Part shown: positions 18,382-60,672 of the stretch, piece by piece | Layout: the number at the start of each line of letters is the position of its first letter | Position numbering within the stretch: the stretch's first letter is position 1 | Assembly (NCBI RefSeq): GCF_012999535.1 | Contig: NZ_JABBWV010000005.1 | Coordinates: 62,001 to 126,000 of the forward strand | Source of the DNA: Microbispora sp. H11081 | GTDB taxonomy: Bacteria; Actinomycetota; Actinomycetes; Streptosporangiales; Streptosporangiaceae | Length of the DNA: 64,000 nucleotides | Direction of reading: 5' to 3' | The notes under the pieces: model-generated | Database searches by the model: none | What the model was told of the DNA's origin: nothing | The model's input: only the letters and a program-made list of their open reading frames with translations | Position numbers and translations under genes: made by a program

Positions 18382-18510
18382 TCACGGGGGGTTGGTGATG
18401 CCCGTGCAGGTGATGTAGCAGGTGTCCTCGCAGGTGACCGGCCGGCACGGCCTGAGCCCGGCCGCCGCGGAGGCCGGCAGCGTTTCCAGCACGACGATGT
18501 CGCTCGACAT
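18382..18510 (-). CDS. Class IV lanthipeptide precursor 3
   Basis: 42 residues. ATG 18510 follows GGGAGTGGAAGAA. The leader reads MSSDIVVLETLPASAAAGLR, with the same hydrophobic-x-x-LPA pattern as the two sister peptides, then Pro-Cys and a Cys/Thr-rich core RPVTCEDTCYITCTGITNPP. It has four Cys, and every Cys after the first is preceded by Thr (TC at 26-27, 30-31 and 34-35). It is shorter by one Cys than precursors 1 and 2. Ser/Thr would be phosphorylated, eliminated and coupled to Cys by the LanL enzyme. Not homologous to its other neighbours; the call rests on layout and on the three-way similarity. Confidence 0.85.
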   Translation of the reverse strand: MSSDIVVLETLPASAAAGLRPCRPVTCEDTCYITCTGITNPP

Positions 18511-18603
18511 TTCTTCCACTCCCTGTCGCTTCTTTGTCTCGTTTCCGGCCCTGAGCAGCGCCGGTGGGGGGTGCGGGCGTGGTGTCGCACCCACACCCCC
18601 GCG

Positions 18604-18636
18604 TTTCCTGACCTCCGCTCAGGTCATGTCAGGAAA
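18604..18636 (-). promoter_or_regulatory. Hairpin between precursor genes 2 and 3
   Basis: TTTCCTGAC at 18604-18612 is the exact complement of GTCAGGAAA at 18628-18636, with a 15-base loop. It sits in the 204-base gap after precursor 2. No U-run follows on the transcribed strand, so it may be an RNA processing or attenuation element that sets relative precursor levels rather than a full terminator. Confidence 0.5.
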
Positions 18637-18714
18637 TTTCCGCGATCGGAGGACGGCGTTCCGCAGCGGCGCCTTCTGCCGTCCTTTCTCCTCGGCTTTG
18701 GCGGAAACCGTGGT

Positions 18715-18855
18715 TCACGCGTTGGTGGGGCCGTTGCAGGTGTAGTCACACGTCGGGTAGACGCAGGTGATCCCGCAGGTGATCAACCAGCCGCACGGCG
18801 CGAGCCCGTTCGGCTCGGCCGGGAGCATGTCCAGGCTTCTGATGTCGATCGTCAT
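18715..18855 (-). CDS. Class IV lanthipeptide precursor 2
   Basis: 46 residues. ATG 18855 is preceded by the near-ideal AAGGAGGTGAAAGAA. The leader MTIDIRSLDMLPAEPNGLA is followed by Pro-Cys and a core with five Cys: TCGITC, PTC and YTC units. The leader shares IDI.(A/S)LDMLPAE with precursor 1 almost exactly. The N-terminal LDMLPAE resembles the L..LP.E recognition region of class IV (VenA-like, ALQxL-type) leaders. The core has aromatic residues (W23, Y33, Y38) and ends NGPTNA. Forty-six bases separate it from precursor 1. Confidence 0.87.
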   Translation of the reverse strand: MTIDIRSLDMLPAEPNGLAPCGWLITCGITCVYPTCDYTCNGPTNA

Positions 18856-18901
18856 TTCTTTCACCTCCTTTCCGACCGTTCGGATGCGGCCGTCGCGGTG
18901 C

Positions 18902-19039
18902 TCAGCCGGCCTCGGTCAGCTCACAGGTGTACGTGCACGACACGGTGATGCAGGTGAACAAGCACGTACCGGGGCGGCAGGGGCCCAGGCCCGCGGATTC
19001 GGCCGGGAGCATGTCCAGCGCGCTGATGTCGATCGCCAT
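18902..19039 (-). CDS. Class IV lanthipeptide precursor 1
   Basis: 45 residues. ATG 19039 is preceded by AAAGGAGGTGAAAAGA. The leader MAIDISALDMLPAESAGLG is followed by Pro20-Cys21 and a core with five Cys in the pattern TCLFTC...SCTYTC. Thr or Ser precedes Cys at four positions, so several short lanthionine rings are possible, but ring pattern cannot be read from sequence. It is the first precursor after the protease gene (86 bases). The G-L-x-P-C junction is shared by all three peptides and is the probable leader cleavage region. Confidence 0.87.
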   Translation of the reverse strand: MAIDISALDMLPAESAGLGPCRPGTCLFTCITVSCTYTCELTEAG

Positions 19040-19125
19040 TCTTTTCACCTCCTTTCGTCGCCGTGGTGGAGACCGGACAGGACCGTCCGGCCGGGTTCAT
19101 GGGTCAGGGCGTCGATGCGCGGGGC

Positions 19126-20892
19126 TCAGCCGGCGAGCAGGAACCGGAGCAGGAACCTGGTCAGTTCGATGCCGTGACCGCCCTGGATGGGATCGTGGCC
19201 GCCGGTCGGCGGCTCCAGGTAGACGAAGTCGCGTCCCTCGTGCCGGCCCGCCTCCAGAAGGCGTTCGCGCAGCCGGCGGGACTGGCTCACCGGAATGACC
19301 TCGTCGTTGTCGCTGTGGACGACGAGCAGGCGGGCGGTGATCCGGTCGCAGAGCCGCGCCACGTCCCGTGGACCCAGGTCGTCGCGGACGACGGCACGGC
19401 CGCCGAGACGATCGATGAGGGCGCGTACCGGCGGCGAGCCTTCCGCGTGGAGGCTCTCGCCGGACAGGAAGGGGGACACCGCCACGCAGCGCGACCACAG
19501 TCCTGGGTCGGCGCCGGCGGCCAGCAGCGCGAGGTAGGCGCCGTAGCTGGTGCCATAGAGCATGAGATTCCGGCCTTCACGGCTCAACTGCCGGGCGAGG
19601 TGCCGTACGTCGGCCAGGTCGGGGCCGCCCCAGGCGCCGTGCAGGGCCCGCTGGTGCGGCAGGCCGTATCCCGTGCTGCCCCGGTAGTTGGGGGCGACGA
19701 CGGCGATCCCGGCGGCGGCCATCTCCTGCATGAGCGGGTCGAATTCCAACTGGGTGGCCGCTTCAGGCCCGCCGTGCAGGAACACCAGGACGTGCCGCGA
19801 GGTGCGCCAGTCTCCGTAGACCACCGCCTCGATCGGCCCGTCCGGGCCGGTGAACTCCTGGACCTCGGCATCCGCCCACGTGTGTCCTTCGTCGGCGACG
19901 AGGCTCCACTCGCCCGTCGTCGTGTCCACCGTGGCGACCCCGCTCGGCCTCGTCGGCGAGGAGAACGGGAATCTCAAGCCGTCCATCCCCCAGGCGGCGA
20001 GGCTCTGGACGACCCCGGGCGGGGTGGGGATGGTGCGGACCCGGTCGAGCCGCGGGGTGTAGATCATCAGATGGGATCGCGCACCGCGGTTCACCCGTAG
20101 CGCGACGTGCTCTCCGGTGGGGTCGACGGCCATCGGCGCGACGCTGCCCTCGATGGCGTCGAGGACGTCGGGAAAGCGCGGCTGTGCGGGGTCGCCCGCG
20201 AACGTGTGGCCGAGCCGGAATCCCTCTCCCGCCTTCTCCGCAAGCAGCAGCAGTCCCGACCGCGGCGCGGCGAGGAGCACGTGCTGGCCGGGCGTCGTGC
20301 CGGGGACGGGGCGTACCCGGCCCGCCTCCAGGTCCACCGCGACCGGCCGTACGAGCGCCCCATCCCGCTGCTGGTTGAGCCCCAGCAGCGCGCCGGAGCG
20401 GTCCAGCGGGCAGGGGCCGCTCAGTGTGCCCGCGAGCTCGGCCACCTGTTCCAGCCATGGTTCCCTGTCCAGGATCCGCCAGATGACCGAGGAGCCGGTC
20501 TCGCCCCGCCCGATGGCCAGCGCGAGCGCCCGCCGGTCGGGGGTGGCGACCAGTCGTACCGCCGGCCGGTCGATGGTGACCAGGGTCCTTTCGACCAGGC
20601 CGGTGGCGGTGGGTTCCGCCAGTACGACGTTGTGGTGGCCGCGGCCCGGCCGGGTGAACAGCACCCGGCCGTCGGCCCGGCACAGCAGCTGGGTCCAGGT
20701 GGTCTCCCCGTGGCGGGTGGCCAGGATCCGGCGGTCCGCCGCCGACGCCGTGAACGACCACAGCTCCAGGGCCAGCGGGGAGCCGCCCCCGCCGGTCAGG
20801 CAGGCGGCGTGGCTGCCGTCGTGGGCGAAGGAGAAGCTGATCCGGGTCCGCGCCCGGGCGGCGGCCGGTACGGCCGCTGTGGTCGTGGTCAC
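19126..20892 (-). CDS. S9 prolyl-oligopeptidase-like serine protease
   Basis: 588 residues from GTG 20892, which shares GTGA with the synthetase stop, so translation is coupled. The first ~330 residues have repeated beta-propeller-like strands (for example LLGLNQQRDGALVRPVAVDL). The last ~250 form an alpha/beta-hydrolase with nucleophile motif YGTSYGAYLALLA (Ser in GTSYG), acid in VHSDNDEVIP and His in the GGHDPIQGG region. No signal peptide. Family members cut after Pro; in class III systems such an enzyme (FlaP for flavipeptin) removes leaders after Pro. All three precursors here have Pro directly before the first core Cys, which suggests this enzyme cleaves there. That role is inferred. 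Confidence 0.88.
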   Translation of the reverse strand: MTTTTAAVPAAARARTRISFSFAHDGSHAACLTGGGGSPLALELWSFTASAADRRILATRHGETTWTQLLCRADGRVLFTRPGRGHHNVVLAEPTATGLVERTLVTIDRPAVRLVATPDRRALALAIGRGETGSSVIWRILDREPWLEQVAELAGTLSGPCPLDRSGALLGLNQQRDGALVRPVAVDLEAGRVRPVPGTTPGQHVLLAAPRSGLLLLAEKAGEGFRLGHTFAGDPAQPRFPDVLDAIEGSVAPMAVDPTGEHVALRVNRGARSHLMIYTPRLDRVRTIPTPPGVVQSLAAWGMDGLRFPFSSPTRPSGVATVDTTTGEWSLVADEGHTWADAEVQEFTGPDGPIEAVVYGDWRTSRHVLVFLHGGPEAATQLEFDPLMQEMAAAGIAVVAPNYRGSTGYGLPHQRALHGAWGGPDLADVRHLARQLSREGRNLMLYGTSYGAYLALLAAGADPGLWSRCVAVSPFLSGESLHAEGSPPVRALIDRLGGRAVVRDDLGPRDVARLCDRITARLLVVHSDNDEVIPVSQSRRLRERLLEAGRHEGRDFVYLEPPTGGHDPIQGGHGIELTRFLLRFLLAG

Positions 20893-23684
20893 GAGTCGCA
20901 CCGCCCCTGCTGCTGCCGGCTGTGGTGGGGCCGGATGCCGGGGTGCGGGCGGGTGAGCAGCTCGTCGGGCATCCACAGCCGGGGGCCGCCGTGGCGCAGC
21001 CGCAGGAGGAAGGCCACCGCACCCCCGAAACCGGTGTTGTAGGCGGGGTGGATCTCGGTGCCGGATTCGTCGGGCAGGACCATGAGGTTGTCGCGGAGGG
21101 TGTTCCTGGCGTACATCGCGGTGGCCAACTCGGCGGCCCAGCCGCGATAGCGCTCCTCACCGGTGAATTCGGCCAGGTCGAGCAGGAAGTCGGCGTCGCC
21201 GGACAGCCCGTGGCAGGAGCTGATGCCCGAGTGCCACATGCCCTGGCGGATCGCGGCCCCCGCCTTCTCCGCCAGATCCCGGTGGCGCCGCTGCCCGGTG
21301 GCGGCCCACAGCCGGATCAGGAACGTGCCGACGCCCGAGGAGCCGCTGCACCAGTGCCGCATCCGGGAGCGGGCGGCGTCCTCCTTCTCCCCGCTGGGCC
21401 ACCAGGCCGCGTCGCCCTCCACGTCGGCGACCGCCGCCAGGGTGTCCGCCGCGCGCTGGGCGGCGTCCAGGTATTCGGCGCGGCCCGTGGCGAGCCAGGA
21501 GTACAGCAGGAAGGCGCCTGCTCCGGCCACGCCGTGCGCGAAGCCGTAGTGGACCAGCCCGGCCAGTTCCGACTCGAACGTCTCGGGGATCGGCCAGACC
21601 GTCAGCCCGTCCTCGCGTTCGCGGGCCGCCTTGAGCACGCTGTCCGCGGCGATCACGATGCGGTCGTGCAGTTCGGGGTCGCCGGTCGACAGCCACAGGT
21701 GCATCTGGGTCATTCCGGCGCCGGCCGCACCGTGGCAGACGTCGTGGCTGGGCCAGTCCACCGGGACCTTCTTGGCCAGCTCGATCGCCTGCGCGGCCAT
21801 CTCGTCGTCGTCCAGCAGGCGGGCGGCGTCGTACAGCGCCCAGGCCGTGCCCGACCGGCCGAAGTACAGTCCGGGAAGGACGCGGGGGATGTCGTGCAGG
21901 CGCCGCAGAACCCAGCCGGCCACCGTCGCGGTCGCGTCGCGCAGCCGGTCCTCGCCGAGCAGCCGGGCGCCACGGGTGAGCACGCCCAGGACCCCACCCG
22001 CCCCGTGCTGCACGTTGCACGGGTCGGTGGTCTCGCCGAACTCGCCCGCCGTCCACAGCCGTGGGGCCTGCGGGTCCATCGTGGCGAGGATGTGGCTCAG
22101 CCCGTCGCGGACCAGCCGATCCGCCAGCGTCTCCGGCAGGCGGCCGTCGCCGCCGGGCTCCGTGGGATCGCCGGGCTCGACTGGGTCGCCGGACGTCGCC
22201 GCGGCCAGGAACTCCCGCGCCCTGGTCAACGTCCAGCGCTGCTCGGGGTCGTCCCTCATCAGGCCCAGCACCAGCGGAGACAGGCGCCGCAACGCCGGCG
22301 TGCCTGCCCCGAGAAGCCGTACGAACTCGGCTGTCCGCTCCTCGGTGCGGCGGGTGGCCGGTCTGTCCGCGACGAGAAGCGGATCCACCGCGGACGTCAG
22401 ATAGAAGATCGTCGCACCGAGGCTGTACAGATCCGCCCGTTGGGAGGGCGCCCTGCCGTACTTGGCCGCCGATGTCTGCTCCGGCGCGCCGTAGGCGGGA
22501 GTGAAGGCTTTGTGTACGGGTGAGCCCGCGGCGACCGCCAACTCCAGGTCGATCAGGCGCAGCCGGCCGTCCGGAGTGACCATGAGGTTGTTGGGGTTGA
22601 GGTCCCGAAGCACCAGGCCTCGCTCATGGACCGCCGCCACGGTCTCGACCAGCTGGCCGGCCTTGTCCAGGACCTCGGCCGGCGGCAGCCCCGCGCCCGG
22701 CGTCCGCCCGGCGCGCTCGGCCGCCCAGGCGCGCAGCGTGAGGCCCGGCACCAGTTCCTGCACCAGAAACAGGTTCTCCTGCTGGGTCAGCAGGGCCACC
22801 TTGCGGGGCGCCAGCCCCTCGGGGGCGAGCAGATCGAGGATCTCCGCCTCGTGCCGCAACGTGTCACGCGCGTCGGTGCCGCTCAGCTGACCCATCACGT
22901 GTGGCCGCGCCTGCTTGAGGATGACCTCATCGCCGGTCCGCTGGTCCGTGCCGCGGTAGACACCGCCACGGTAGGAGTGCCTGACGGCCTCCGCCACCAC
23001 GAAGCGTTCGCCGATCAGCACCGGGCCGGGCGCGGCGGCGGGGCTCGCGGCCACCGGCTCCGGCGCGGGCAGCGGCGGCTCCGCCCACGGCGGCGGGCTG
23101 AACCAGGCCAGGCGCTGGTCCTTGTACGTCTTCCCGTCAGGACCGGTCAGCCTCGACTCGAAGCTTCCGTCGTTGGTCAGCACCGGCTTGGCGCCGAAAA
23201 CGCCGAAGCGGTAGTGCACCAGGCTGCCGGGACGCAGCCGCCGGTCGGACAGGATCGCCGGGCCGGGGAGTCCGTCGGTCGCCCGGTCCAGCTCGGCGGC
23301 GAGGTGGCGGAACTGCTCGTCGTCGCTGGGATACGCGGTGACGAACTTCCCTCCGCTGCCACGGTCGACGGTGTTGGACAGCAGGTCGGCCAGCTCGTTC
23401 AGCCCTCGCGCGAACTTGAACGCGCATCCGGCCCGGACGAGAACCTCGGCGGCGCGGGCCAGCACGACCGGCGCGGACAACTGCGTGGCCGACAGGTGCA
23501 GCTTCCACCCCTGGCCGGGTGTCCGGCCCTCCGGGGGCGTCAGCAGGCACCAGAATCTGCCCGGCTCGAACTTCCAGCCGCCACTGCTCTCCCGCGCCAG
23601 GACAGCGAGGGCGATGTCCTGCAGCAGGCGTGAATCGTCCACCGCCGCCGCTTCCCGCGCGCCGTGCGCGTTCTCCACACTCAT
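20889..23684 (-). CDS. lanL: Class IV lanthionine synthetase (LanL type)
   Basis: 931 residues from ATG 23684 (a longer frame to 23750 is possible; neither start has a strong ribosome site). N-terminal OspF-like lyase domain (about 1-210): WKLHLSA, FKFARG, GKFVTAYP and SLVHYRFG. Central Ser/Thr kinase domain (about 225-510) with VILKQA, catalytic LRDLNPNNLMV and the DFG-like LIDLELAV. C-terminal LanC-like cyclase (about 530-930) with seven G-x-x-G helical motifs. It retains the zinc ligands lost in class III: Cys in HWCSGSSG and Cys-His in SSCHGLSG, plus the acid/base His in GFAHGVAGAG. It would phosphorylate and eliminate precursor Ser/Thr and form (methyl)lanthionine. A 285-base AT-richer gap upstream separates it from the SARP gene. 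Confidence 0.93.
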   Translation of the reverse strand: MSVENAHGAREAAAVDDSRLLQDIALAVLARESSGGWKFEPGRFWCLLTPPEGRTPGQGWKLHLSATQLSAPVVLARAAEVLVRAGCAFKFARGLNELADLLSNTVDRGSGGKFVTAYPSDDEQFRHLAAELDRATDGLPGPAILSDRRLRPGSLVHYRFGVFGAKPVLTNDGSFESRLTGPDGKTYKDQRLAWFSPPPWAEPPLPAPEPVAASPAAAPGPVLIGERFVVAEAVRHSYRGGVYRGTDQRTGDEVILKQARPHVMGQLSGTDARDTLRHEAEILDLLAPEGLAPRKVALLTQQENLFLVQELVPGLTLRAWAAERAGRTPGAGLPPAEVLDKAGQLVETVAAVHERGLVLRDLNPNNLMVTPDGRLRLIDLELAVAAGSPVHKAFTPAYGAPEQTSAAKYGRAPSQRADLYSLGATIFYLTSAVDPLLVADRPATRRTEERTAEFVRLLGAGTPALRRLSPLVLGLMRDDPEQRWTLTRAREFLAAATSGDPVEPGDPTEPGGDGRLPETLADRLVRDGLSHILATMDPQAPRLWTAGEFGETTDPCNVQHGAGGVLGVLTRGARLLGEDRLRDATATVAGWVLRRLHDIPRVLPGLYFGRSGTAWALYDAARLLDDDEMAAQAIELAKKVPVDWPSHDVCHGAAGAGMTQMHLWLSTGDPELHDRIVIAADSVLKAAREREDGLTVWPIPETFESELAGLVHYGFAHGVAGAGAFLLYSWLATGRAEYLDAAQRAADTLAAVADVEGDAAWWPSGEKEDAARSRMRHWCSGSSGVGTFLIRLWAATGQRRHRDLAEKAGAAIRQGMWHSGISSCHGLSGDADFLLDLAEFTGEERYRGWAAELATAMYARNTLRDNLMVLPDESGTEIHPAYNTGFGGAVAFLLRLRHGGPRLWMPDELLTRPHPGIRPHHSRQQQGRCDS

Positions 23685-23969
23685 GGGTTCACCCGTCGTC
23701 CGTCTCACGCCGGCCGGGACAGAGGAGATCCGGCGACGTGTTCCACTCATTCATCAGGACCATTCCGCGGGAAACTGGCGCTCGCCGTTCCCGTGCGATT
23801 CATTGATAACCGGGCGTTGTTGCCGGACGGTTGCCACGGCGCTGAAGTGCGGAAACGCTACCGCGCAGGGATTCGGTTTCTCTTTCCTTTTCCGCGCATG
23901 CGGGAAAGGCCGAGCCTTTTCGCTCCTATGAGCGCGACCCGGTCGAATGAATAAGGCGGTGATGCGCGC

Positions 23970-41489: not shown

Positions 41490-43796
41490 TCACGCTGTCG
41501 AAGCGCCCAGCCGCACGGTCACCGTGCAGGAGGCGCCCTCGTGATCGGCCAGCCCTCCGAAGGTGAGCGCGAGCCCCGCGCCGGTCTCCGCGCGCTCCAG
41601 GAGCGGGTGGCCGCGCGTGACCCCGGCCACCGGGCGGTCCCACGTCACGGTCAGCCCGTCGAGCGCCCACCGGGGATCGGCCACCGTCACCGTGGCCGTG
41701 CCGTCGCCGAGGTCGCGTACGAGGACCGAGCACGGCTCGGAGGCCGTCAGGCCCCCGGCCCGTCCGCCCGTCCAGAAGTTGGCCGCGGTGAGGCCCGTCG
41801 ACGCGACCTCGACCCCCTGCACGGCCGAGGTGTTGGCGATCACCCTGACCCGGCCGGGATCGGCGGCGCGCGCGGCGGTCTCGGCCGGGCCCGCCCCCGG
41901 CAGGAGGTGGTAGACGTAACCGGCCTCCTCCGGGTCGATGCCGTGGTCCAGCCACAGCGTCACGTAGGCCCGGGTGACCCCCGCGCCGGTGCGCTCCTCG
42001 CGCAGCGTGCGCGGAGACTGCCCGGCGGGCACGACATAACCGCCGTGGCCGTCCAGGTGCGCCCATCCGTCGCCGGAGGTGAGCCCGGCGCCGGTCCTGC
42101 GGTTGTCCACGACTGTCTCGACCGGCACGCCGTCGCGGCACGTGATGCCCGCGCCCAGGCAGACCACGGCGTCGTCGAGGAAGAACCACGACTTGAACGC
42201 CTCAAGCGTGCTCCCCAGGCCGTACAGATGCTGGCCCACGGCGGCGTACGCGCCGTCGGTCGCGCCGCCCACCCACTCCGCCGGCGGGCGGGTGTCTCCC
42301 CACTCGCCGCCCGCGCCGTCGCGGAGGCGCAGCGTGGAGACCGTCGTGCCCGGCAGGCGGTACGGGTCCACGGTGGGCCAGAAGGCGTCGGAGTAGTGGT
42401 CGCCGTGTCCGCCCGCCCACCAGTAGAGCATTCCCGAGCCGGTGTGCCAGCCGCGCCGGTTCTCGCCGTTGCCGTGCTCGTAGTGCGCGACCCGTGCGGA
42501 GGCCATGCTGAGCGCCGCGCACCAGCCGCGCCCGCGGTGAACGGCGCGCGCGCTCGCGGGGAACAGGCGGTGCCCGGCGGGCTCGGCGGCGGCCGGGACG
42601 GTCGCGTCGTCGAGCACGGCCGACAGGCGCGCGTGGAACGCGAGGTCACCGCCCTGTGCCGCCGCCCCGAGCATGGGCATGGCGGTGCCGCGCACGGCCC
42701 AGCCCTTGACCATGGCCCGCCATCGGGCCCGTTCCGCCGATGGGGCGGTCTCGGCCAGCAGCAGGACAGCGGCGGCGATCTCCCTGCCTCTCCTGTGGTC
42801 GCCGAACGACCGCCTGTCTATGCCGCGTCCGCGTACGAGGTCCATGCACGCGCCGTCGTGGACGAAGGGGGCGAACGACAGGTCCACGGCGTCGAGGACG
42901 GTCCGCGCGGCCGGGTCGGTGATCTCCCACGGCGTGCCGCGCAGCACCGCGAGCAACGTGGCGAGGCCTGTCAGCAGCACCGCGCCGTACCCGCCCTGGT
43001 AGGGGACAGAGCCGTGCTGGATGAACGAGCCGTCCCGATGGAAGCCGTCGCCCTCGGTGACGTAGCGGAAGACCGGGGAGAGCGCGGACGCGGCGAGCGC
43101 GGCACGGCCGGGATCCGCGCCGGCGATCGCCCGCAGCAGCGTCACCGTGCAGAGGTCGACCCGGTTCGCCCCGGTGCTGTTGCCCTCGTAGTCGTCCAGG
43201 CGGCTCTCCGGGACGAACGTGTCCACGGCCGCGCGGAGCGCCTCGCCCTGCGCGTCGGTGAGGTACGGCGCGGCGAGCACGGCGGCGTCGAGCAGCGCCC
43301 TCGGCGTCCCGATCTGCCAATCCCACCAGTTGCCGGTCTGCTCGGCGTCCTCCGCGTACACGTGCCGCGTGTAGTGCCCGATCCCCGTCGCGACCGCCGT
43401 GCCGAGTCCTGGCTCGGCGGTGAGCCCGGTGCCCGGCAGCGCGTACGCGCGGGCCATGGCGCGCAGCCGCGCCGGGGTGGCGTCGAGGGAGGGGAAGGGC
43501 AGGTCGGGCCAGAGAGAGGTCGCGGTGGGCACCATGGTGTCGCGGTGCCGGCGCGCCTGCGCGCCCAGCCGAGCCAGCCGGGTCCGGTACGGCTCCCGCC
43601 CGGGGTCGAACGTCCCCGGATGGCCGAGCGTGATCTCCACCCACCGGCGGCGCAGCGTGGCGAAGGCGTCGCCGTGGGCCTTCCCATCACGGGGAGCGCA
43701 CGCGGCGGTCAGCGCGGCGAGCCCGCTGAACTGGAGAAATAATCGCCGGGAAGGTCGCCTCACGCGTAGATTATCCGCGCGATCGGCCCCTTTCAT
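41490..43796 (-). CDS. Secreted PL8 family polysaccharide lyase
   Basis: 768 residues from ATG 43796 (GTG 43763 is possible). The N-terminus has a Tat-like signal with lipobox (RRLFLQFSGLAALTAAC-A), so it is probably a surface lipoprotein. The PL8 alpha/alpha-toroid supplies catalytic residues: Asn in NWWDWQIGTPRALL, His/Tyr in IQHGSVPYQGGYGAV and Arg in RGRGIDRRSFGDHRRGREIA. A beta-sandwich super-domain follows. PL8 enzymes cut hyaluronan, chondroitin or xanthan; the substrate is not decided by sequence alone. A CebR-type palindrome 21 bases upstream suggests sugar-dependent control. Confidence 0.88.
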   Translation of the reverse strand: MKGADRADNLRVRRPSRRLFLQFSGLAALTAACAPRDGKAHGDAFATLRRRWVEITLGHPGTFDPGREPYRTRLARLGAQARRHRDTMVPTATSLWPDLPFPSLDATPARLRAMARAYALPGTGLTAEPGLGTAVATGIGHYTRHVYAEDAEQTGNWWDWQIGTPRALLDAAVLAAPYLTDAQGEALRAAVDTFVPESRLDDYEGNSTGANRVDLCTVTLLRAIAGADPGRAALAASALSPVFRYVTEGDGFHRDGSFIQHGSVPYQGGYGAVLLTGLATLLAVLRGTPWEITDPAARTVLDAVDLSFAPFVHDGACMDLVRGRGIDRRSFGDHRRGREIAAAVLLLAETAPSAERARWRAMVKGWAVRGTAMPMLGAAAQGGDLAFHARLSAVLDDATVPAAAEPAGHRLFPASARAVHRGRGWCAALSMASARVAHYEHGNGENRRGWHTGSGMLYWWAGGHGDHYSDAFWPTVDPYRLPGTTVSTLRLRDGAGGEWGDTRPPAEWVGGATDGAYAAVGQHLYGLGSTLEAFKSWFFLDDAVVCLGAGITCRDGVPVETVVDNRRTGAGLTSGDGWAHLDGHGGYVVPAGQSPRTLREERTGAGVTRAYVTLWLDHGIDPEEAGYVYHLLPGAGPAETAARAADPGRVRVIANTSAVQGVEVASTGLTAANFWTGGRAGGLTASEPCSVLVRDLGDGTATVTVADPRWALDGLTVTWDRPVAGVTRGHPLLERAETGAGLALTFGGLADHEGASCTVTVRLGASTA

Positions 43797-43816
43797 CGAT
43801 CTTCGGCACAACCCTA

Positions 43817-53502: not shown

Positions 53503-54060
53503 ATGTCGAACGTTCCCCCGTTCGCGGAACTCATCGCCGCCACCGAGTTCTCCGCGATCCACCTTGAGATGCGGGACGTCTACACCCCCAAGGGCCCGGT
53601 GTACACCGACTGGAAGGCCGGGATCCCGATCGAGTACGACCGGCACGGCGACTGGGTCCGCCTCGTCGGCGAGACGGTCGGCCGCGGTGTGGACTGGCGG
53701 CGCGCCCGCATCATCTCCGAGCCGGTGACGGACTTCATCGTCTACGAGCACGAGACCACGACCATCGTCAACGTCCCCGCCGGCGAGAAGGTCCGCTGGC
53801 TGCCCCGCCGGCTGGCCAGCGACCTGTTCCTGCCCGGAAATGACTTCTGGGTGTTCGACAACCGCCTCGTCCGCTTCACCCACTTCCACGGCGACGGCAC
53901 GTACGGACCGCACGAGCTGAGCGACGACCCGGAGCTGGTGCGCAGGTGCGTCGAGGCGTTCGAGGCCGTGTGGGCGCGCGCCGTCGACCACGCCGACTAC
54001 GTGCCCGTCGTGAAGGAGGACGAGCCGGTCGCCTGTTCCAACCCGGCCGCCGCCGCCTGA
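53503..54060 (+). CDS. DUF6879 family protein
   Basis: 185 residues, ATG with CGGAGGTC upstream. The pattern AIHLEMRDVYTP, RARIISEPVTDFIVYEH, NVPAGEKVRWLPRR and GNDFWVFDNRLVRFTHFHG matches the actinomycete DUF6879 family. Members usually sit beside a Scr1-type helix-turn-helix gene; here none is adjacent. Role unknown. It ends before a bidirectional terminator shared with the PIG-L gene. Confidence 0.85.
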   Translation: MSNVPPFAELIAATEFSAIHLEMRDVYTPKGPVYTDWKAGIPIEYDRHGDWVRLVGETVGRGVDWRRARIISEPVTDFIVYEHETTTIVNVPAGEKVRWLPRRLASDLFLPGNDFWVFDNRLVRFTHFHGDGTYGPHELSDDPELVRRCVEAFEAVWARAVDHADYVPVVKEDEPVACSNPAAAA

Positions 54061-54137: not shown

Positions 54138-54869
54138 TCAGATGCCGATGACCTCGAAGGCGATGGCGGGAACGCCGCCGAACCGCTCGCCGAACCTGCG
54201 CACCTTCTGCTCAAGGAAGCCGCGCGCGTCCGCCATCGGGTGGTCGGGCGGGAGGGCGGGCAGGTACGACCGGTGCGCCTCCAGCGCGGCGACGCCCTTC
54301 TCGAACGACGACGACACGTCGACCGCGTGCTTGGCGTACGGGGATCCGCCCACGGCGGCGAAGCGCACGCCGCCCCACGGTTCCAGCCCCCGCTCGGCCA
54401 GTTCGGGGAAGATCCAGCGGTTGCCCGCGTCGCCCGCGGCGTCGAGCAGCGCCCTGCCCACGTTGCGGTGGTCGGGCGAGTTCCAGTCGCCGCCGCGCCA
54501 CCGCTCGTGGAAGTTCAGGGTGACCACGATGTCGGGGCGCTGCTCGCGGATGGCGGCGGCGATGTCGCGGCGCAGCGGCAGGCCGTACTCGATGACGCCG
54601 TCCTGGTAGTCGAGGAACCGGATGTCGGTGACCCCCACGAGCGCGGCGGCCTCGATCTGCTCGGCCTCGCGCAGCCGGCCGGCCTCGGCGGGAGGCAGCG
54701 CGTCGATGCCCGCCTGGCCCCGCGACACCATCAGATAGGAGACCTGTTTGCCCGCGGCCGTCCAGGCGGCGACCGCCAGGGCGGGCCCGTACTCGAGGTC
54801 GTCGGGGTGGGCCACGACCGCCAGCGCGCGCTGCCAGTCGTCCGGCATGGGGGCGTACGGCTCAGCCAT
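54138..54869 (-). CDS. PIG-L family deacetylase
   Basis: 243 residues, ATG 54869. The zinc motif AHPDDLEYGPALAV is at residues ~20-33, and the third ligand region lies in the conserved SPDHRNVGRALLDAAGDAG. Family members remove N-acetyl groups from GlcNAc-type sugars (MshB, GlcNAc-PI deacetylase) or tailor natural products. It is the last gene of the WDEL-peptide operon, 39 bases after the MFS gene; a tailoring role on the product, or a coincidental position, are both possible. Confidence 0.88.
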   Translation of the reverse strand: MAEPYAPMPDDWQRALAVVAHPDDLEYGPALAVAAWTAAGKQVSYLMVSRGQAGIDALPPAEAGRLREAEQIEAAALVGVTDIRFLDYQDGVIEYGLPLRRDIAAAIREQRPDIVVTLNFHERWRGGDWNSPDHRNVGRALLDAAGDAGNRWIFPELAERGLEPWGGVRFAAVGGSPYAKHAVDVSSSFEKGVAALEAHRSYLPALPPDHPMADARGFLEQKVRRFGERFGGVPAIAFEVIGI

Positions 54870-54908
54870 CGTTCACCTGCGTCTCGTCGGGGGTCGTGGG
54901 GAAGGCGC

Positions 54909-56204
54909 TCAGGAGACGGCGAAGCGCGGGCGGGTGCGCTCTGCCCACCGGACGGCCGGGCCGCTCAGGGCGAGTCCGACGGCGAACACCACGGCGAGCA
55001 TCGCCCAGCCGCCGAGGCCGAACCGCTCCGGCAGCAGCGTCACCAGCGTCGGGCCGGCGATCGCGGCCAGCGCGTCCCCCGAGGAGAACATCCCGCCGTA
55101 CTGCCCCTGCGCGTTGTCGGGCGCGAGTTCGTAGCGCAGGCCCCAGCGCGCGCCCTCGCCCCAGATCTCGCCCATCGTGAAGACCGCCATCGCCACCACC
55201 ATGATCAGCGTGGCGACCAGCGGAGACACTCCGGAGGCCAGGCCCGTGACGACGCACGCGATGGCGAGGCTGAGGAACGTCAGCCGCTGCAGGCGCGCGG
55301 CCCCGCGCACGGTGTCGGCGTCGCGGGCCGCCCTGACCTGCAGGAGCACGACCATGACGGTGTTGATGGCCATGAGCCAGGCGGCCAGCGCACGCGGCGC
55401 CTCCGTCTGCGTGACCAGCCAGATCGGCAGGCCGACCGCGGCGACCGTCGGCCCGAGCCTCGCGATGCCCGCCACCTGGGCGACCGCCAGGTAGGGCCAG
55501 TCGCGCAGGGCGAGCCAGCCGCCGCCATCGGCCTTCCTGCCCGCCTCGCGGGTGCCGGGCACCCGGGGCAGCCGCAGATAGAGGACCACGGCCAGGACCA
55601 TGGCGGCCGCGTTGCCCAGCATCAGCGACAGGTACGCCTCGTGCGTGTCGATGGCGATGACGACGCCCGCCCCCAGCACGCCCAGCGTGAACCCCGCGTT
55701 GAACACCGAGCGCAGGTACGCCGAGAGTTTGACCCTGCCCTCACGGCCCATCAGGCCGGAGATCAGCGCCCCTCTCGCCACCTGGCCGCCGCCGTCGGCC
55801 ACGCCGAGCAGGCCGACCGCGAGCAGGTAGGCGGGGAACGACGAGACGAGCGTCACCGCGCACAGCGCCAGGGCCTTGGCCAGCACCAGGGCGATCGTGA
55901 CCTCGCGCGGCCCGAACCGGTCGGCCAGCCAGCCGAGCGGCACGTTCAGCGGCAGGCTGATCAGGCCGACGAGAGACAGGCCTAGGCCCACCTGCGCGGA
56001 CGACAGCCCGACCTCGCGGATGAAGTAGACCGCCGACCCCGAGAGGTAGAGGCCGTTCCCGATGCTCGACACGGCCGAGCACAGCACGAGCATACGGCCC
56101 GGTCCCGGCGGCGGGAGCATCCGCGTGATCAGGCGCTTCAGGGACGACGGCGGGCCGTCGGCCGTCTCCTGTCCTGTCTGCTCGTTCTGCTCGGTGACAG
56201 TCAA
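54909..56204 (-). CDS. MFS transporter
   Basis: 431 residues. Start TTG 56204 is chosen because GGGAGAGG lies just upstream. Twelve membrane helices; the loop between helices 2 and 3 reads GWLADRFGPREVTIALVLAK, the MFS signature (G-x3-D-R-x-G-x-R). Probably a proton-driven exporter. It lies 11 bases after the GNAT gene and would export the peptide-derived product of this operon. Confidence 0.9.
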   Translation of the reverse strand: MTVTEQNEQTGQETADGPPSSLKRLITRMLPPPGPGRMLVLCSAVSSIGNGLYLSGSAVYFIREVGLSSAQVGLGLSLVGLISLPLNVPLGWLADRFGPREVTIALVLAKALALCAVTLVSSFPAYLLAVGLLGVADGGGQVARGALISGLMGREGRVKLSAYLRSVFNAGFTLGVLGAGVVIAIDTHEAYLSLMLGNAAAMVLAVVLYLRLPRVPGTREAGRKADGGGWLALRDWPYLAVAQVAGIARLGPTVAAVGLPIWLVTQTEAPRALAAWLMAINTVMVVLLQVRAARDADTVRGAARLQRLTFLSLAIACVVTGLASGVSPLVATLIMVVAMAVFTMGEIWGEGARWGLRYELAPDNAQGQYGGMFSSGDALAAIAGPTLVTLLPERFGLGGWAMLAVVFAVGLALSGPAVRWAERTRPRFAVS

Positions 56205-56214
56205 GGCCTCTCCC

Positions 56215-57321
56215 TCACTCGTTCACCTGAACGGCCGCGTACAACGTGGTGGTCGTGCAACCGCGCGACCGTTTCGCGGCGATGGTCCCGATGCCGTACC
56301 CGATGGTCCGCACCCCGACGGCGGGGGCGAGCTCGGCCGGCCGGTAGAACATGGTGGCGAAGTAGACGAACGATGCGGCGGGATCGTCGTAGTCGGCGCC
56401 GTTCATCAGCACGGTCCACGCGTCGCCGTCGCGGATGAACGTGCTGAACGCGAGCGTTCTGCCGTCCTTGCGCGCCTCGATGACCAGCAGGTCGTCGCCG
56501 AAGTGGTCGCGCAGGTAGCGCAGCGAGCCCGCCTCGCGCTCCGGGTCGGCCACGCCGCCGTACTTGGCGACGAGGTTGCACCGCAGGCGCACCAGGTCGG
56601 GTTCTTCGTCCCGCACCCCGCGCTCGCGGATCTCGATGCCGCGCTCACGGATCTCCCTGGTCTCGCGCCGCGCGGCCGTACGCCGGTTGCGCGACAGGGT
56701 GGCGAGGTAACCGTCGAAGTCGGTCCAGGTCACCCGCATGTCACAGCGCTCGGCCATCGGCACGAGGCAGGCGCCGTGCGACTGCAGGGCGGCCAGATAC
56801 TCGGGGCGGTCGGAACGCAGATAGAGATGGACGACGCTGCGGATGCCCTGCTCGCGGGTCCAGCGCGTGAGCGCGCCCACGAACTCCTCGGCGGTGAACC
56901 GGTCGCGGGCGTCGCGGCCCGCCGGCACCGTCTCGTAGTTGGGGAACATGACCACGCAGGCGGGGAAGACGTGTTCGGGGTCGACGCCCTTCCACGGATG
57001 CGGGCCCTCGGTGGCGATCTCCACGCCCGGGCCCGCCGACGCCCCGCTGAGCACGGCGTACGGGTCGAAGCGCGGATGCCCGGTGGGGGCGTCCTGGACG
57101 CCGCCGCACAGGCCCATCGTCAGCGTGCCGTCGGGGTCGTACAGGCCGAACGTCCGCAGGCCCCCGGGGACGCGGCCCTCGGCGAGGTTGATCCACCGCT
57201 TGCTCAGCGTCGCGGGCGCCGTCCCTGCCCGCTCGTCCCAGTCGTCCGGCAGCCCGCCGGACACGAGGAACCGCAGCCCGCTTGCCGCGTCCGGCGTCAC
57301 AGTGGTGCTGGCGTTCCTCAC
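56215..57321 (-). CDS. GNAT/FemAB-like acyltransferase
   Basis: 368 residues from GTG 57321, preferred over GTG 57363 because GGGGAG lies six bases upstream. An N-terminal half of unknown fold is followed by a GNAT-type region with LSRNRRTAARRETREIRERG and a C-terminal GYGIGTIAAKRSRGCTTTTLY, as in BioF2-like or peptidogalycan-biosynthesis acyltransferases. FemAB relatives add amino acids from aminoacyl-tRNA; others acetylate. Substrate not known. It lies 48-90 bases after the FAD monooxygenase gene. Confidence 0.72.
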   Translation of the reverse strand: MRNASTTVTPDAASGLRFLVSGGLPDDWDERAGTAPATLSKRWINLAEGRVPGGLRTFGLYDPDGTLTMGLCGGVQDAPTGHPRFDPYAVLSGASAGPGVEIATEGPHPWKGVDPEHVFPACVVMFPNYETVPAGRDARDRFTAEEFVGALTRWTREQGIRSVVHLYLRSDRPEYLAALQSHGACLVPMAERCDMRVTWTDFDGYLATLSRNRRTAARRETREIRERGIEIRERGVRDEEPDLVRLRCNLVAKYGGVADPEREAGSLRYLRDHFGDDLLVIEARKDGRTLAFSTFIRDGDAWTVLMNGADYDDPAASFVYFATMFYRPAELAPAVGVRTIGYGIGTIAAKRSRGCTTTTLYAAVQVNE

Positions 57322-57411
57322 CGAATCTCCCCGGCCCACGTCGTGTGTGGTGATTCTCTTCACTGTCCCGCCGCCGTCCCCGCGCGGACATCTTCCAGAT
57401 TGCGCGGCCGT

Positions 57412-59145
57412 TCAGGCGGCGTGCCCGCGCGGCTCGGCCGCCGCGACGCGGGCGATCTCCTCGGCGTCGGCGAAAGCGACCATGTCGATCCGCCCGGCCA
57501 CGAGCAGGGTGTTGATCTCGTCGCGGGGCAGCCGCCGCGGTGACAGCAGCAGGACCGGCAGGCCCGTCTCGTACCGCAGGCGGTCGGCCAACCGGGTGCG
57601 CTCGACCCGGCCCGCGCCCTCCTGGGCTGGCACGGCGAGGAAGTCGAACCTGGGCGGTACACCTCCTGCGCGGCGCGGGAAGCCGGAGACGAGCAGCCCG
57701 ACGGCGGACGCGCCCGTCGCCCTCAGCCGGCCCGCCACCGCGCTGGGGTCGGCGTGCCTGCCCTCCTCGACGAGCACGACGGACGACGCCCGGTGGCCGA
57801 GCGTCTCCTCCGGCCCGGCGACCTGGCAGCGGTCGTCGCCGCGCGAGGTCGGGAAGAGCAGCGTGCCCGCGTGGCCGTCGAAGTGGACCATGCGACCGGT
57901 GAGGCGGGCATGGCCGATCGTGATCGGCAACTCGGCCGGCTCGGCCGTCGTGGGCCCTCCGGCCAGGACCTCCACGGCCCTGCCGACGAACTCGGGGTCG
58001 CGCTCGCGTAGCCGCTCGAAGGTGTTGGCCTCCCTGCGGCTGCGCAACGCGAACACGGTCTGGTGCCCGCGCAGGCGCTCGCGGCGGCTGAGCGTCTCGA
58101 ACCACCGCTGGCTGTCGTGCGCCTCCTGCTGGGTCCGCCGCAGCACGGGCCTGCGCGTCGCGGCGTACTCCGCGAGGCCCTCGGCGACGGACGGCCGCTC
58201 GGCGAGCGAGCGCGCGAGACAGAGCGCGTCGTCGATGGCGAGGGCGGTGCCCGACCCGATCGAGAAGTGCACGGTGTGCGCCGCGTCGCCGATCAGCACG
58301 ATGTGCTTGCCGGCGTCGTCTCTCCCCGCGGCGTCGTGCACCGTGTGGTGCACCGTGTCGTGCACAGTGTGGTGCCATCGCTCGTTGGAGATCGTCGGGA
58401 AGGCCCGCCATCCCGTGGTCTGGGCGCGCAGGGGCGCGCCGCCGAGTTCGTCGGCGAAGATCTCCGCGAGCGCCCGCTCCACCTCGGGGATCGGCCGGTC
58501 GAGCAGGCCCTGACGGGCGAGCGTCCCGGGATCGGCCTCCACGATGAACGTGCTCTCCCCGTCCGCGTGGGGATAGGAGTGCACGATCAGCAGCCCGCCG
58601 TCCACCGGGCGCAGCACGAAGGTCGGCTCCAGCACGGCCGGCGTGCTCATCCACAGGAACCGGGTGCGACCCGTGGTGGTCCTGGTGCCGAACTCCTTCT
58701 CGTACGGCGCGCGCATCCGGCTGTTCGCGCCGTCGGCGGCGACGAGGAGATCGTGGCCCGCCGGCGGGGTGGTGAGAGTCCGCTCGACGAAGCGCACGTT
58801 GGGCAGCGCGCGCACCAGGGAACGCAGATGCGCGCGGAACGCCCGCCTGCTCAGCCCGAACATGCCGTACGCGCCCGACCAGATGCGCTCTCCTCCCGCG
58901 ACGGTGAGCGTGCGGTCCCAGGTCGCCATGGCCGAGCGCGGCAGGTCGAACGCCCCGGGGTGCGACGCGCCGACCCGCTCGGCGAACTCCCAGGACATCA
59001 CGATGCCCGCGCCGGGTGAGCGGTCCTCACGGTCGTACAGGTCGATCGCCACGTCGGGACGCAGGCGCGACAGTTCCAGCGTGAAGAAGGCGCCGGCGGC
59101 CCCCGCCCCGGCGACGGCCACCCGGTCGAGCGCCCGGGCGCTCAT
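57412..59145 (-). CDS. FAD-dependent monooxygenase with degenerate C-terminal domain
   Basis: 577 residues from ATG 59145 (ATGA overlap with the globin stop). FAD-binding start VAVAGAGAAGAFFTLELSRL, an aromatic-hydroxylase middle (FLWMSTPAVLEPTFVLRPVD) and the GD motif HIVLIGDAAHTVHFSIGSG. Residues ~390-577 do not belong to the hydroxylase core; DEINTLLVAGRIDMVAFADA resembles the end of an old-yellow-enzyme barrel, as in SdgC-type fusions, but the domain is incomplete. An odd His-rich insert (WHHTVHDTVHHTVHD) sits near residue 260. Likely hydroxylates an aromatic ring; with a Trp-rich peptide in the operon, peptidyl Trp is a candidate. Confidence 0.83.
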   Translation of the reverse strand: MSARALDRVAVAGAGAAGAFFTLELSRLRPDVAIDLYDREDRSPGAGIVMSWEFAERVGASHPGAFDLPRSAMATWDRTLTVAGGERIWSGAYGMFGLSRRAFRAHLRSLVRALPNVRFVERTLTTPPAGHDLLVAADGANSRMRAPYEKEFGTRTTTGRTRFLWMSTPAVLEPTFVLRPVDGGLLIVHSYPHADGESTFIVEADPGTLARQGLLDRPIPEVERALAEIFADELGGAPLRAQTTGWRAFPTISNERWHHTVHDTVHHTVHDAAGRDDAGKHIVLIGDAAHTVHFSIGSGTALAIDDALCLARSLAERPSVAEGLAEYAATRRPVLRRTQQEAHDSQRWFETLSRRERLRGHQTVFALRSRREANTFERLRERDPEFVGRAVEVLAGGPTTAEPAELPITIGHARLTGRMVHFDGHAGTLLFPTSRGDDRCQVAGPEETLGHRASSVVLVEEGRHADPSAVAGRLRATGASAVGLLVSGFPRRAGGVPPRFDFLAVPAQEGAGRVERTRLADRLRYETGLPVLLLSPRRLPRDEINTLLVAGRIDMVAFADAEEIARVAAAEPRGHAA

Positions 59146-59678
59146 CGCGGCGTCCCGTCCCAGTGGAAGCGGACGCCCCTGGCGATCGCGGCGCCCCGCG
59201 ACACCGCCATCATCTCGCCGCTGGCGATCTTCATGATGGTCATGAACTCGGTGAAGTAGGGCTCGGGGGCCGACAGCAGCGTGCCGGCCTCCTTCATCAG
59301 CGCCAGCCAGCGCAGCCGCTGCTCCCGGGTGATGAGGAAGTGGCTGTGCGCCTGGTGCATGCGGGGGTCCCAGGCGGCGGTGAGGTCGTTCCTGCCGTAG
59401 ATCTGGATGTAGTGGGCGGCCAGGCGCTCGGCGTGCCGGTCCCAGTCGTGTACCGCGAAGAGCGGGAGCAGCACCTCGTCCCGCGAGACGAGCGCGTAGA
59501 ACCGGGAGGCGAGCGCCCGGAAGAACGCCTCGCCGCCGATGCCGGTGTAGAAATCGGCGACCTTCTTGTCGACGTCGGCGGGCGTCATCTGCTCGGCGGG
59601 CTTGACGCCCTCGTCCGCCACGAGCAGCACCTTGCCGTCGTGGGCCGGCGCGGTCGCGGGGGGCGCCGTGGTGGGCAT
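59142..59678 (-). CDS. Group 2 truncated haemoglobin
   Basis: 178 residues from ATG 59678 (AGGAG upstream). A ~40-residue tail precedes the globin, which begins near FYTGIGGEAFFRALASRFYA and includes the heme-pocket helix region HDWDRHAERLAAHYIQIYG. The proximal His is probably His111 in MHQAHSHFLIT (the family form is RMRHxxF). Truncated globins bind O2 or NO or act as redox partners. Here it is translationally coupled to an FAD monooxygenase next to a short peptide gene, so oxygen or electron supply for a tailoring reaction is inferred. Confidence 0.88.
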   Translation of the reverse strand: MPTTAPPATAPAHDGKVLLVADEGVKPAEQMTPADVDKKVADFYTGIGGEAFFRALASRFYALVSRDEVLLPLFAVHDWDRHAERLAAHYIQIYGRNDLTAAWDPRMHQAHSHFLITREQRLRWLALMKEAGTLLSAPEPYFTEFMTIMKIASGEMMAVSRGAAIARGVRFHWDGTPR

Positions 59679-59936
59679 GGTCGTTCTCCTGTCGGTGGTC
59701 GTGGGCGCGGCCGTCGCGGAGACCGCGCCCTGGGAGGGGTGTCGGTCGATCCCGGGCGGATCGAGAACGGTGGGGAAGGGGTGAGAGACGGGTGCCCGCA
59801 GGTCCGCGACGTGCGGGCGCCTGTCGTCTGCCGGGAATGGCGGAGGTCCGTCCGCCGTGCCGTGGCGCTCCCGGGACGGCTCAGATGCGTCTCCTCTCCT
59901 CTCGGTGCTCGCCGGCCGCCCGGCGCCAGGCGGGGG

Positions 59937-60077
59937 TCAGCGGGGGACCGCGGCGCCCAGCTCGTCCCAGACCTTGAGCTCGTCCCAGACGAGCTGGTCC
60001 CAGACCTCCAGCTCGTCCCACACCTCCAGCTCGTCCCAGACGGGAGCGGGGGCGGGGGCGGTGATCAGGTTGGTCAT
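59937..60077 (-). CDS. 46-residue peptide of five VWD[E/Q]L repeats; candidate RiPP precursor
   Basis: ATG 60077 follows AAAGGGAAAAGAA. The protein is MTNLITAPAPAP, then five units (VWDELE, VWDELE, VWDQL, VWDELK, VWDEL), then GAAVPR. Trp falls at 14, 20, 26, 31 and 37, and spacing is 6, 6, 5, 6. The short leader, repeated core and position at the head of a tailoring operon (258 bases before the globin) are typical of RiPP precursors, yet no known class is recognised: there are no Cys/Ser/Thr-rich core, no YcaO, LanC, rSAM or ATP-grasp gene. The repeat could equally be an acidic amphipathic binding peptide. Underlying DNA repeats are not exact, so codon divergence suggests selection on the amino acids. 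Confidence 0.75.
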   Translation of the reverse strand: MTNLITAPAPAPVWDELEVWDELEVWDQLVWDELKVWDELGAAVPR

Positions 60078-60672
60078 TTCTTTTCCCTTTCTGGATCGGG
60101 ACGTTGTCCGTACCAGAACTGTGCGGCATCGGCGGAGGCGGGACCAGGCGATGGGAAGACAGCAAGTTGCCCCGCCATTACCGCTTCCTGCCACAGTCAG
60201 TGCTTTGCGGCAGCACCGGACCACGGCCCTTTGGGGCCACTAAATGACACCAAACAAGAAAGAGGTTGCATGGCATGTATTATTCGTGAAATGGTCGGTT
60301 AGCGTCGCTTATGCGCAACGCTCGCACATTTGAAGCGCTCCAGTTTCCGCCATGGGAGAACCGGCGACCCGGGCCCCACCGGACCGCCACGCCCGCTCCG
60401 CCCAGGCGTCGCGGGACCGGCACCGAGCCGAGAACCCCTGCGAGACCGGGATTTACCGCTGATCCCGTACCGATCCGGAAGGTCCCGGACACCTCACCAG
60501 AGATCGCCGCGAAACCCCACATCTTTACGTATTTGCCACATTCTGGTGTGCAGGTGGGGTTGGCGGACGGACTCGCATACCATCGACCGTCGCGCATTAC
60601 CGGGAGCTGACACTTCGCCGGGTAGCGTCGTCCAAGACAGTACGCCCGAAAAATATGGATGAAGGCGCGTAT
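60078..60672. other. Intergenic region, no supported gene
   Basis: About 595 bases holding the presumed promoters of the divergent peptide operon and the STAS gene. The part 60180-60300 is AT-richer. A ten-codon frame (ATG at 60270, product MACIIREMVG) has AGAGG upstream but is too short to judge. Longer frames here lack coding character. Confidence 0.5.

Follow-up and report, generated by a model that had tools for sequence, protein, structure and literature searches.

Gene organization in the window

We analyzed a run of six genes in Microbispora sp. H11081, located in a 64,000-nucleotide stretch of contig NZ_JABBWV010000005.1 (positions 62,001 to 126,000), which is hereafter called the window. 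As the initial annotation had proposed, the run lies on one strand and is headed by a gene for a 46-residue repeat peptide, which holds five Val-Trp-Asp (VWD) units. It continues with genes for a truncated globin, a flavin adenine dinucleotide (FAD) monooxygenase (FMO), a GNAT-fold protein, an MFS transporter and a PIG-L family protein. The features of the locus are as follows.

59937-60077, minus strand: repeat peptide (precursor candidate), 46 residues, MTNLITAPAPAP and then five VWD units.
59958-60041, minus strand: V-W-D array of five units, with Trp-Trp spacings of 6, 6, 5 and 6 residues.
60085-60091, minus strand: GAAAGGG, ribosome-binding-like, 7 bases 5' of the peptide ATG.
59142-59678, minus strand: group II-like truncated globin whose N-terminal extension is conserved; pocket residues H111, Y61, F74 and W124; PF01152.
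59142-59145, minus strand: ATGA, where the globin stop overlaps the FMO start.
57412-59145, minus strand: FMO of the VioD / salicylyl-CoA 5-hydroxylase type, FAD-binding motifs intact; PF01494.
57466-57615, minus strand: C-terminal stretch of the FMO, weakly like the second half of a bifunctional salicylyl-CoA 5-hydroxylase/oxidoreductase; NF006101.
56215-57363, minus strand: Fem-like GNAT-fold protein, candidate aminoacyl-tRNA-dependent transferase; PF04339 (FemAB_like).
54909-56204, minus strand: MFS transporter, candidate exporter; PF07690; present in all seven loci described below.
54138-54869, minus strand: PIG-L family de-N-acylase, LnmX-like, with HPDD and DHR(N/H)VG motifs; PF02585.
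53503-54060, plus strand: DUF6879 protein, convergent to the run; PF21806, E 1.1e-49; with the cluster in six of seven loci.

The peptide open reading frame (ORF) has a coding-type composition, with G+C fractions of 0.96 at third and 0.40 at second codon positions, and the chosen ATG is preceded by a purine-rich stretch in all eight peptide genes compared. The several ATGA couplings described for the run were overstated: the window has one such overlap, between globin and FMO, and the remaining four junctions are gaps of 10, 39, 48 and 258 bases. The globin/FMO overlap recurs in 7/7 loci.

Recurrence of the gene set

The set recurs in seven loci: the window, G172, G185, G197, G031, G768 and a Streptomyces plasmid, i.e. 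six beyond the window, from five genomes and one plasmid. G185 is an Actinoallomurus metagenome-assembled genome (MAG; contig JAOPYG010000377.1). The peptide, globin, FMO and MFS genes are present at all seven, and the GNAT and PIG-L genes at six; in G185 the latter two lie together with DUF6879 about 52 kb away on the same 99-kb contig. All seven therefore have a GNAT and a PIG-L gene, although a mis-join in the G185 MAG is possible. DUF6879 was not found in the 30-kb plasmid stretch. When 433 coding-like ORFs from the seven loci are compared as six groups (G172 and G197 taken together), the globin, FMO, GNAT, MFS and PIG-L genes, along with their shadow frames, are the only ones to occur in every group.

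The position of the peptide gene is not fixed. It lies upstream of the globin gene in the window and G185, upstream of the GNAT gene on the plasmid and in G768, and at the far end of the cluster, by PIG-L and on the strand opposite globin and FMO, in G172, G197 and G031. Thus, the linkage has outlived rearrangement. Loss or divergence of the peptide in genomes that keep the globin/FMO pair had been named as the observation that would speak against its involvement; all six other loci found with the pair hold a VWD-repeat peptide, with 4-16 Trp residues. A conserved candidate precursor gene adjoining putative modifying enzymes, as expected of ribosomally synthesized and post-translationally modified peptides (RiPPs), is therefore found in 7/7 loci.

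These loci come from searches of different scope. In the family (297 genomes), the FMO has matches at E 1e-30 in 120 genomes, counting the own one, and clear orthologues outside the own genome occur in four (G172, G185, G197 and G031; 63-67% identity, near whole length, E-values of at most 5.5e-196). The best match after these has E 1.3e-55, with 39% identity over residues 8-420. Some weaker matches, with 28-33% identity over most of the length, were rejected as relatives for their unrelated context. Seven regions of 11.7-20 kb around distant FMO homologues with long coverage were discarded, as tblastn revealed no relative of globin, GNAT, MFS or PIG-L and no WD array was seen there. With the globin, a strong match was obtained in the own genome only among 394 genomes of the class, next to two weak, unrelated globins; by genus, matches occur in 3/11 genomes for that of G172, 1/8 for that of G185, 1/15 for the own genus and 1/392 for genus g85 (G768). 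One record of the plasmid collection carries the globin, namely plasmid NZ_CP108708.1 of Streptomyces sp. NBC_01003. In the FMO search, the class globin search and the g85 search, the best four or eight first-look candidates per genome were scored, and the genome sets overlap, so the counts are not additive. Viral contigs and phage collections gave no match, and a profile search of genome contigs with the globin alignment and two N-terminal patterns returned the Actinoallomurus contig only, a result not readable as absence elsewhere.

Conservation of the V-W-D motif

The units of the window peptide are VWDELE, VWDELE, VWDQL, VWDELK and VWDELG. With the chosen starts, the seven precursors are 30, 46, 70, 85, 98, 125 and 125 residues long and their Trp counts are 4, 5, 10, 10, 14, 15 and 16; in five of the seven the open frame extends further upstream, and the G031 peptide could equally well start at an ATG two codons earlier. 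Trp is followed by Asp in 74/74 cases and preceded by Val in 72/74, the exceptions being one S and one T, and F stands in place of W in two further units. The unit VWD[E/Q]L, as first described, is thus too narrow, since V-W-D alone is constant across the loci. Trp-Trp spacing is 5 or 6, or 10, 12 or 15. In the long arrays of G172 and G197, the three positions after D show an entropy of 2.6-3.3 bits compared with 0-0.64 at V, W and D. The shorter arrays also have constant residues at some spacer positions, for example L in the window. What differs between loci is the number of units, the short N-termini and most of the spacer residues. Every precursor mixes the V codons GTC and GTG, and the D codon is GAC in 70/72 VWD. 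The mixed V codons and differing spacers, with V-W-D kept, indicate that a protein motif is conserved and not a DNA repeat. V-W-D as the sole constant suggests a product of about that size.

With the chosen starts, the first VWD is preceded by only 4-17 residues, which have no motif in common, so the leader peptide typical of RiPPs is not recognizable here. The cluster proteins contain no leader-binding Pfam domain. Leaderless RiPPs exist.

A short ORF with five Trp codons upstream of the run, as in the window, could also encode a Trp-sensing leader peptide for attenuation control of the genes that follow. We regard this as most improbable: in G172, G197 and G031 the peptide gene lies at the other cluster end, on the opposite strand to globin and FMO, three precursors reach 98-125 residues with 14-16 Trp, and Asp is no less constant than Trp.

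Specificity of the array and the orphan peptide of G216

A DNA pattern for a VWD pair matches in 12 of the 297 family genomes and more than once only in G000, G031, G172, G185, G197 and G216. Five of these six are the enzyme-cluster genomes, and the sixth, G216, belongs to the genus of the window. No array was found within 4.8-18 kb around the match in the six single-match genomes, and a backward control pattern matches in three genomes, with 8, 2 and 1 matches. Array and cluster occur together in five genomes, the array only in one, the cluster only in none and neither in 291 (Fisher p = 3e-10, with a cut-off set post hoc and kinship ignored). Among 136 sequences, 45 have at least four VWD within 40 residues, and all are copies of the seven clusters or G216; of sixteen other three-letter motifs, 13 give zero sequences and three give one. 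These distributions bear on the view that the array is a neutral coding minisatellite adjoining the enzymes by chance. WD-type repeats are indeed common, as a TGGGAC triple pattern occurs in 76/394 class genomes, with many (uncounted) matches for its backward control as well, and other W-D or F-D repeats exist in relatives that lack the cluster. However, the strict VWD pattern is found more than once in only 6/297 genomes, all five cluster genomes included, and V-W-D is kept through mixed GTC/GTG codons and varying spacers, which makes a chance minisatellite very unlikely. The triple pattern itself was abandoned as too unspecific.

G216 shares with the window the flank of STAS and glutamate-cysteine-ligase-like genes, but neither the FMO nor the globin has a match in its genome, and the GNAT has only a distant one, located elsewhere. 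Its peptide of 129 residues contains 12 Trp, of which nine stand in WD and five in VWD. Compared with the seven precursors, the motif is loosened both for VWD (5/12 versus 72/74, Fisher p = 4.7e-6) and for WD (9/12 versus 74/74, p = 0.002). We read this peptide as probably decaying following enzyme loss; another use there is possible. In a tblastn search with the orphan peptide, 15 same-genus genomes yielded G216 itself and G000 (E 9e-7), with nothing else better than E 0.008. The G768 peptide found the three cluster genomes among 11 of the genus of G172 at E 9e-16 or better, and six more weakly, with best E-values of 1.9e-4 to 0.0013.

Several further repeats and neighbours were observed. G148 (C85, base ~500-870, in the genus of G172) has, close to a contig end and with no cluster genes, GTTWDSAP repeats that follow a hydrophobic N-terminal segment, G129 has an AGTWDR repeat within a long frame, and G203:C9 (L119) has six VFDGL(A/T) units in a 545-residue open frame. 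Two related genes (71% over 749 residues), which by eye look like terpene synthases, are placed beside the repeat peptide in G031 (L035:14684-17230) and, in G216, some 7 kb from the orphan peptide (L082:803-3088). A tblastn search of plasmids with the G768 peptide retrieved the Streptomyces plasmid (E 3e-4) among 19 records. Fifteen of the remaining 18 are enterobacterial, and several have better E-values; we dismissed all 18 as repeat noise after inspecting three, which have at most one [VIT]WD per stop-free stretch.

The globin and the flavin monooxygenase

The nearest solved structures to the globin are Thermobifida fusca haemoglobin (2bmm) and Mycobacterium tuberculosis HbO (1ngk). The protein matches the fold profile of truncated globins, PF01152, and has the proximal His of group II: H111 is invariant in 7/7 and aligned to the His of 2bmm and 1ngk. 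Y61 and W124 also align with the solved globins, so that the heme-pocket His, Tyr and Trp positions are in common. Unlike 2bmm and 1ngk, the cluster globin has roughly 38 extra N-terminal residues, conserved in stretches, that lie outside the solved-relative match, and it is coupled to one FMO in 7/7 loci. Mean pairwise identity is 75% for the globin and 62% for the FMO (seven rows each), and 74% for PIG-L and 64% for GNAT (six rows each), which indicates that the globin is strongly constrained.

The nearest solved relative of the FMO is VioD (3c4a, 8gqr), with E 2.7e-46 for 3c4a and 1.1e-43 for a second VioD match, followed by a next match at 4.9e-10. The residues of the GxGxxG, DG and GD motifs of class A flavin monooxygenases are invariant in 7/7, which together with the best solved match 3c4a places the protein in the VioD type. 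VioD matches profile positions 6-352 of the cluster FMO; unlike VioD, the latter has about 150 additional residues and a gene that overlaps a globin gene. VioD works in a small-molecule pathway, that of violacein. In NCBIfam, the FMO matches NF006101 (salicylyl-CoA 5-hydroxylase/oxidoreductase, FAD part) and VioD models, both below equivalog cut-offs. Its C-terminal stretch has no Pfam match and weakly resembles a remnant of the second half of NF006101 (E 0.00041 over positions 670-718; two relatives score E 0.00011 and 0.025). A structure model of the FMO, with a mean predicted local distance difference test (pLDDT) score of 62, was too poor for a structure search.

The likeness to salicylyl-CoA 5-hydroxylase, and the weak likeness to the second half of that protein, raise the idea that the cluster serves aromatic-acid degradation or detoxification and that the peptide is unrelated. 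This is highly improbable in our view, because the loci have neither a recurrent coenzyme A (CoA) ligase nor a recurrent ring-opening enzyme, and the peptide, the Fem-like protein and the LnmX-like enzyme would be left unexplained.

The Fem-like GNAT and PIG-L proteins

The GNAT protein is better read as a candidate FemX-type aminoacyl-tRNA-dependent transferase than as an acetyltransferase. PF04339 (FemAB_like) scores 37.5 bits in the window protein against a cut-off of 27, and the two relatives scanned lie below, at 19.8 and 24 bits. Foldseek with the AlphaFold model, whose mean pLDDT of 73.7 is moderate, lists as first matches FemX, the streptothrisamine-binding synthases Sbb17 and Sba18, and MprF, at E 7e-10 to 2e-9. 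GNAT-fold aminoacyl-tRNA transferases act in natural products (review PMC12945691; the words 'RiPP' and 'globin' are absent from its text). Among natural-product FemABX-type transferases (Sbb17, Sba18, VlmA, DhpH-C, PacB, Orf11), the predicted fold of the cluster GNAT would be linked via Sbb17 and Sba18. A distant Fem-like GNAT relative (29% identity) is found on a plasmid of Nocardia sp. NBC_01327 (L110, 9968-14811), accompanied by an MFS gene of its own and a lysine 2,3-aminomutase; addition of beta-lysine there is a guess. Given these neighbours and the lack of a WD array, it was set aside as a different pathway.

The PIG-L protein keeps its family, and its role is revised, as its nearest relative is LnmX of the leinamycin cluster. 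It aligns with LnmX (5bmo) over the whole length at E 1.5e-87, and HPDD and DHR(N/H)VG are kept in 6/6 aligned PIG-L. Unlike the setting of LnmX, polyketide genes adjoin the cluster set in some loci, not all.

Proposed pathway and relation to known RiPP classes

On balance, we favour a RiPP-type gene set that matches no known class, in which a nearly leaderless, multi-core V-W-D precursor would be oxidized at Trp by the globin/FMO pair. The ribosome would make the peptide as a string of V-W-D with freer spacers between, and the globin/FMO pair, encoded by overlapping genes, would oxygenate the Trp of each unit. The VioD-type FMO would attack the indole, and the heme globin may supply, gate or itself activate O2. 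Trp oxidation by the FAD enzyme with help of the globin had been suggested from the start: W-D conservation and a VioD-like FMO fit Trp as the target, the invariable ATGA overlap fits a globin/FMO unit, and the chemistry is what we infer from these sequence features. Because no protease recurs, ordinary housekeeping peptidases would cleave the chain and so release a small VWD- or WD-derived product in several copies. The Fem-like enzyme may use a charged tRNA to attach an amino acid, the LnmX-like PIG-L may strip an acyl or aminoacyl group, either in maturation or for activation, and the MFS protein would export the product. Where polyketide genes are linked, a larger product may incorporate the unit or draw on the enzymes.

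Multi-core precursors are known from cyanobactins, fungal dikaritins and pheganomycin, which resemble the VWD cluster in their repeated short cores with spacers and in having tailoring genes and an exporter nearby. Unlike these, the core here is the three-residue V-W-D, only 4-17 residues precede the first unit, and the recurrent set has none of the class enzymes of those families. Pfam and NCBIfam searches of seven cluster proteins bear out the first impression that a class-defining RiPP enzyme is lacking: the recurrent set has none of the lanthipeptide, lasso, YcaO, radical S-adenosylmethionine, multinuclear non-heme iron-dependent oxidative (MNIO) or P450-type enzymes. By the same databases it has no LanB-like domain, the mark of pearlins and their peptide aminoacyl-tRNA ligases (PEARLs), and its tRNA-dependent candidate is the Fem-like protein. 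PADLOC assigns none of six cluster proteins to a defence family. In the open-licence literature searched, we found no description of a VWD-repeat peptide or of a globin-containing RiPP cluster. The set shares the general logic of RiPPs and passes no class test, which leaves a real chance of a new class. A more specific proposal is tentative and rather unlikely as a whole: a new class in which a dedicated truncated globin is itself the catalytic partner of a VioD-type flavoenzyme in peptide-Trp oxidation (e.g. indole opening or hydroxylation) on leaderless V-W-D cores, followed by FemX-type tRNA-dependent aminoacylation, with the product in some loci maybe joined to a polyketide. Such a RiPP pathway would rely on a globin and a Fem-type ligase where others have a known class enzyme.

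Neighbouring genes and the main alternative

Polyketide- or acyl-carrier-type genes adjoin the set in 3/7 loci (G185, G768 and the plasmid). In G185 the two halves of the VWD set are separated by nucleotide-sugar genes and a modular type I polyketide synthase (contig C417, 24-82 kb), and a dTDP-glucose-dehydratase-type gene directly follows PIG-L. G768 has a ketosynthase domain just upstream (L111:6577-8178). The plasmid neighbours encode an acyl carrier protein, an AMP-binding protein, a phenylalanine aminomutase and sugar enzymes; a further gene (L081:22117-24339, minus strand), 3.3 kb past MFS and alongside an 83-residue hypothetical gene, is annotated as binding the precursor leader of thiazole/oxazole-modified microcins (TOMM) and is non-recurrent. 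A TrmO-like methyltransferase gene lies beside the FMO on the opposite strand in the same three loci (G185 L033:8317-8769, plasmid L081:17003-17455, G768 L111:12247-12681). G185 and the plasmid have in common the TrmO-like, AraC and response-regulator genes and two sugar genes, as well as another MFS gene that is also present in G172/G197. No polyketide synthase was found among the window neighbours scanned, where the other biosynthetic genes are those of a lanthipeptide cluster about 30 kb off, nor does one recur across the 20-kb stretches taken from G172, G197 and G031.

These neighbours feed the main rival to a modified precursor, in which the peptide is an unmodified scaffold, inhibitor or carrier that binds the globin, the FMO or the product through its repeated Trp-Asp. 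The enzymes would then tailor a small molecule instead, at some loci one made by the neighbouring polyketide genes. We hold this to be possible, though unlikely. A multivalent binding peptide would also suit the near-absent leader, the W-D constancy and the variable unit number, the relatives of the FMO, by their names, use small aromatics or CoA esters, polyketide- or acyl-carrier-type genes are neighbours in 3/7 loci, and PIG-L is closest to LnmX of the leinamycin cluster. However, as no polyketide synthase was found among the scanned window neighbours and none recurs in the stretches from G172, G197 and G031, the set can stand without one there. The drift of V, W and D in the G216 orphan suits a lost substrate and, equally, a lost partner.

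Several points weigh against Trp oxidation of a V-W-D precursor. First, the cluster is known here from its genes, and the polyketide-type neighbours in 3/7 loci make a self-contained pathway uncertain, since the enzymes may contribute to a larger product. Among the 433 ORFs of the six locus groups there is no recurrent protease or leader-binding protein. The seven loci are not seven independent events, as G172 and G197 are a close pair with 94% identical FMOs; between these two, VWD positions are not clearly better protected than others (2/48 versus 6/77 codons with a residue change). The orphan comparison consists of one genome. The 136-sequence set is made of the window and overlapping loci, many chosen by motif, and is no independent control; allowing T or I adds two of 131 sequences, those of G148 and G129. 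Finally, the first ten Foldseek matches of the moderate GNAT model have low query template-modeling scores of 0.36-0.38, with one at 0.34, and 11-16% identity.

Apart from the VWD set, three features of the surroundings were recorded. The G185 locus holds a tryptophan-halogenase-type flavoprotein (L033:2425-4092, minus strand; PF04820) near MFS and 4.7 kb from the FMO, which may belong to the cluster. The window contains a class IV lanthipeptide cluster (14840-23750, minus strand) with LanL at 20889-23750 (NF038150, 1102.9 bits), an S9 peptidase (19126-20976), two ABC transporters (14840-18339) and a 70-residue candidate precursor ORF (18382-18594); the lanthipeptide synthetase does not figure among the recurring genes of the relatives, in a neighbour-recurrence comparison that took the window from position 40000 on and thus did not extend to the synthetase itself. 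A polysaccharide lyase of family 8, hyaluronate-lyase-like, is encoded at 41490-43811 (minus strand).

If oxidation of the V-W-D precursor by the globin/FMO pair is true, it would be a further bacterial route to oxidized-Trp compounds, based on a three-residue unit in many copies and on enzymes independent of a leader. With 4-16 units, free spacers and no leader, the system would also be a convenient peptide-modifying tool. We know of no other globin-fold protein with a dedicated place in such a pathway, and the cluster would provide a defined system for testing what many bacterial truncated globins do.

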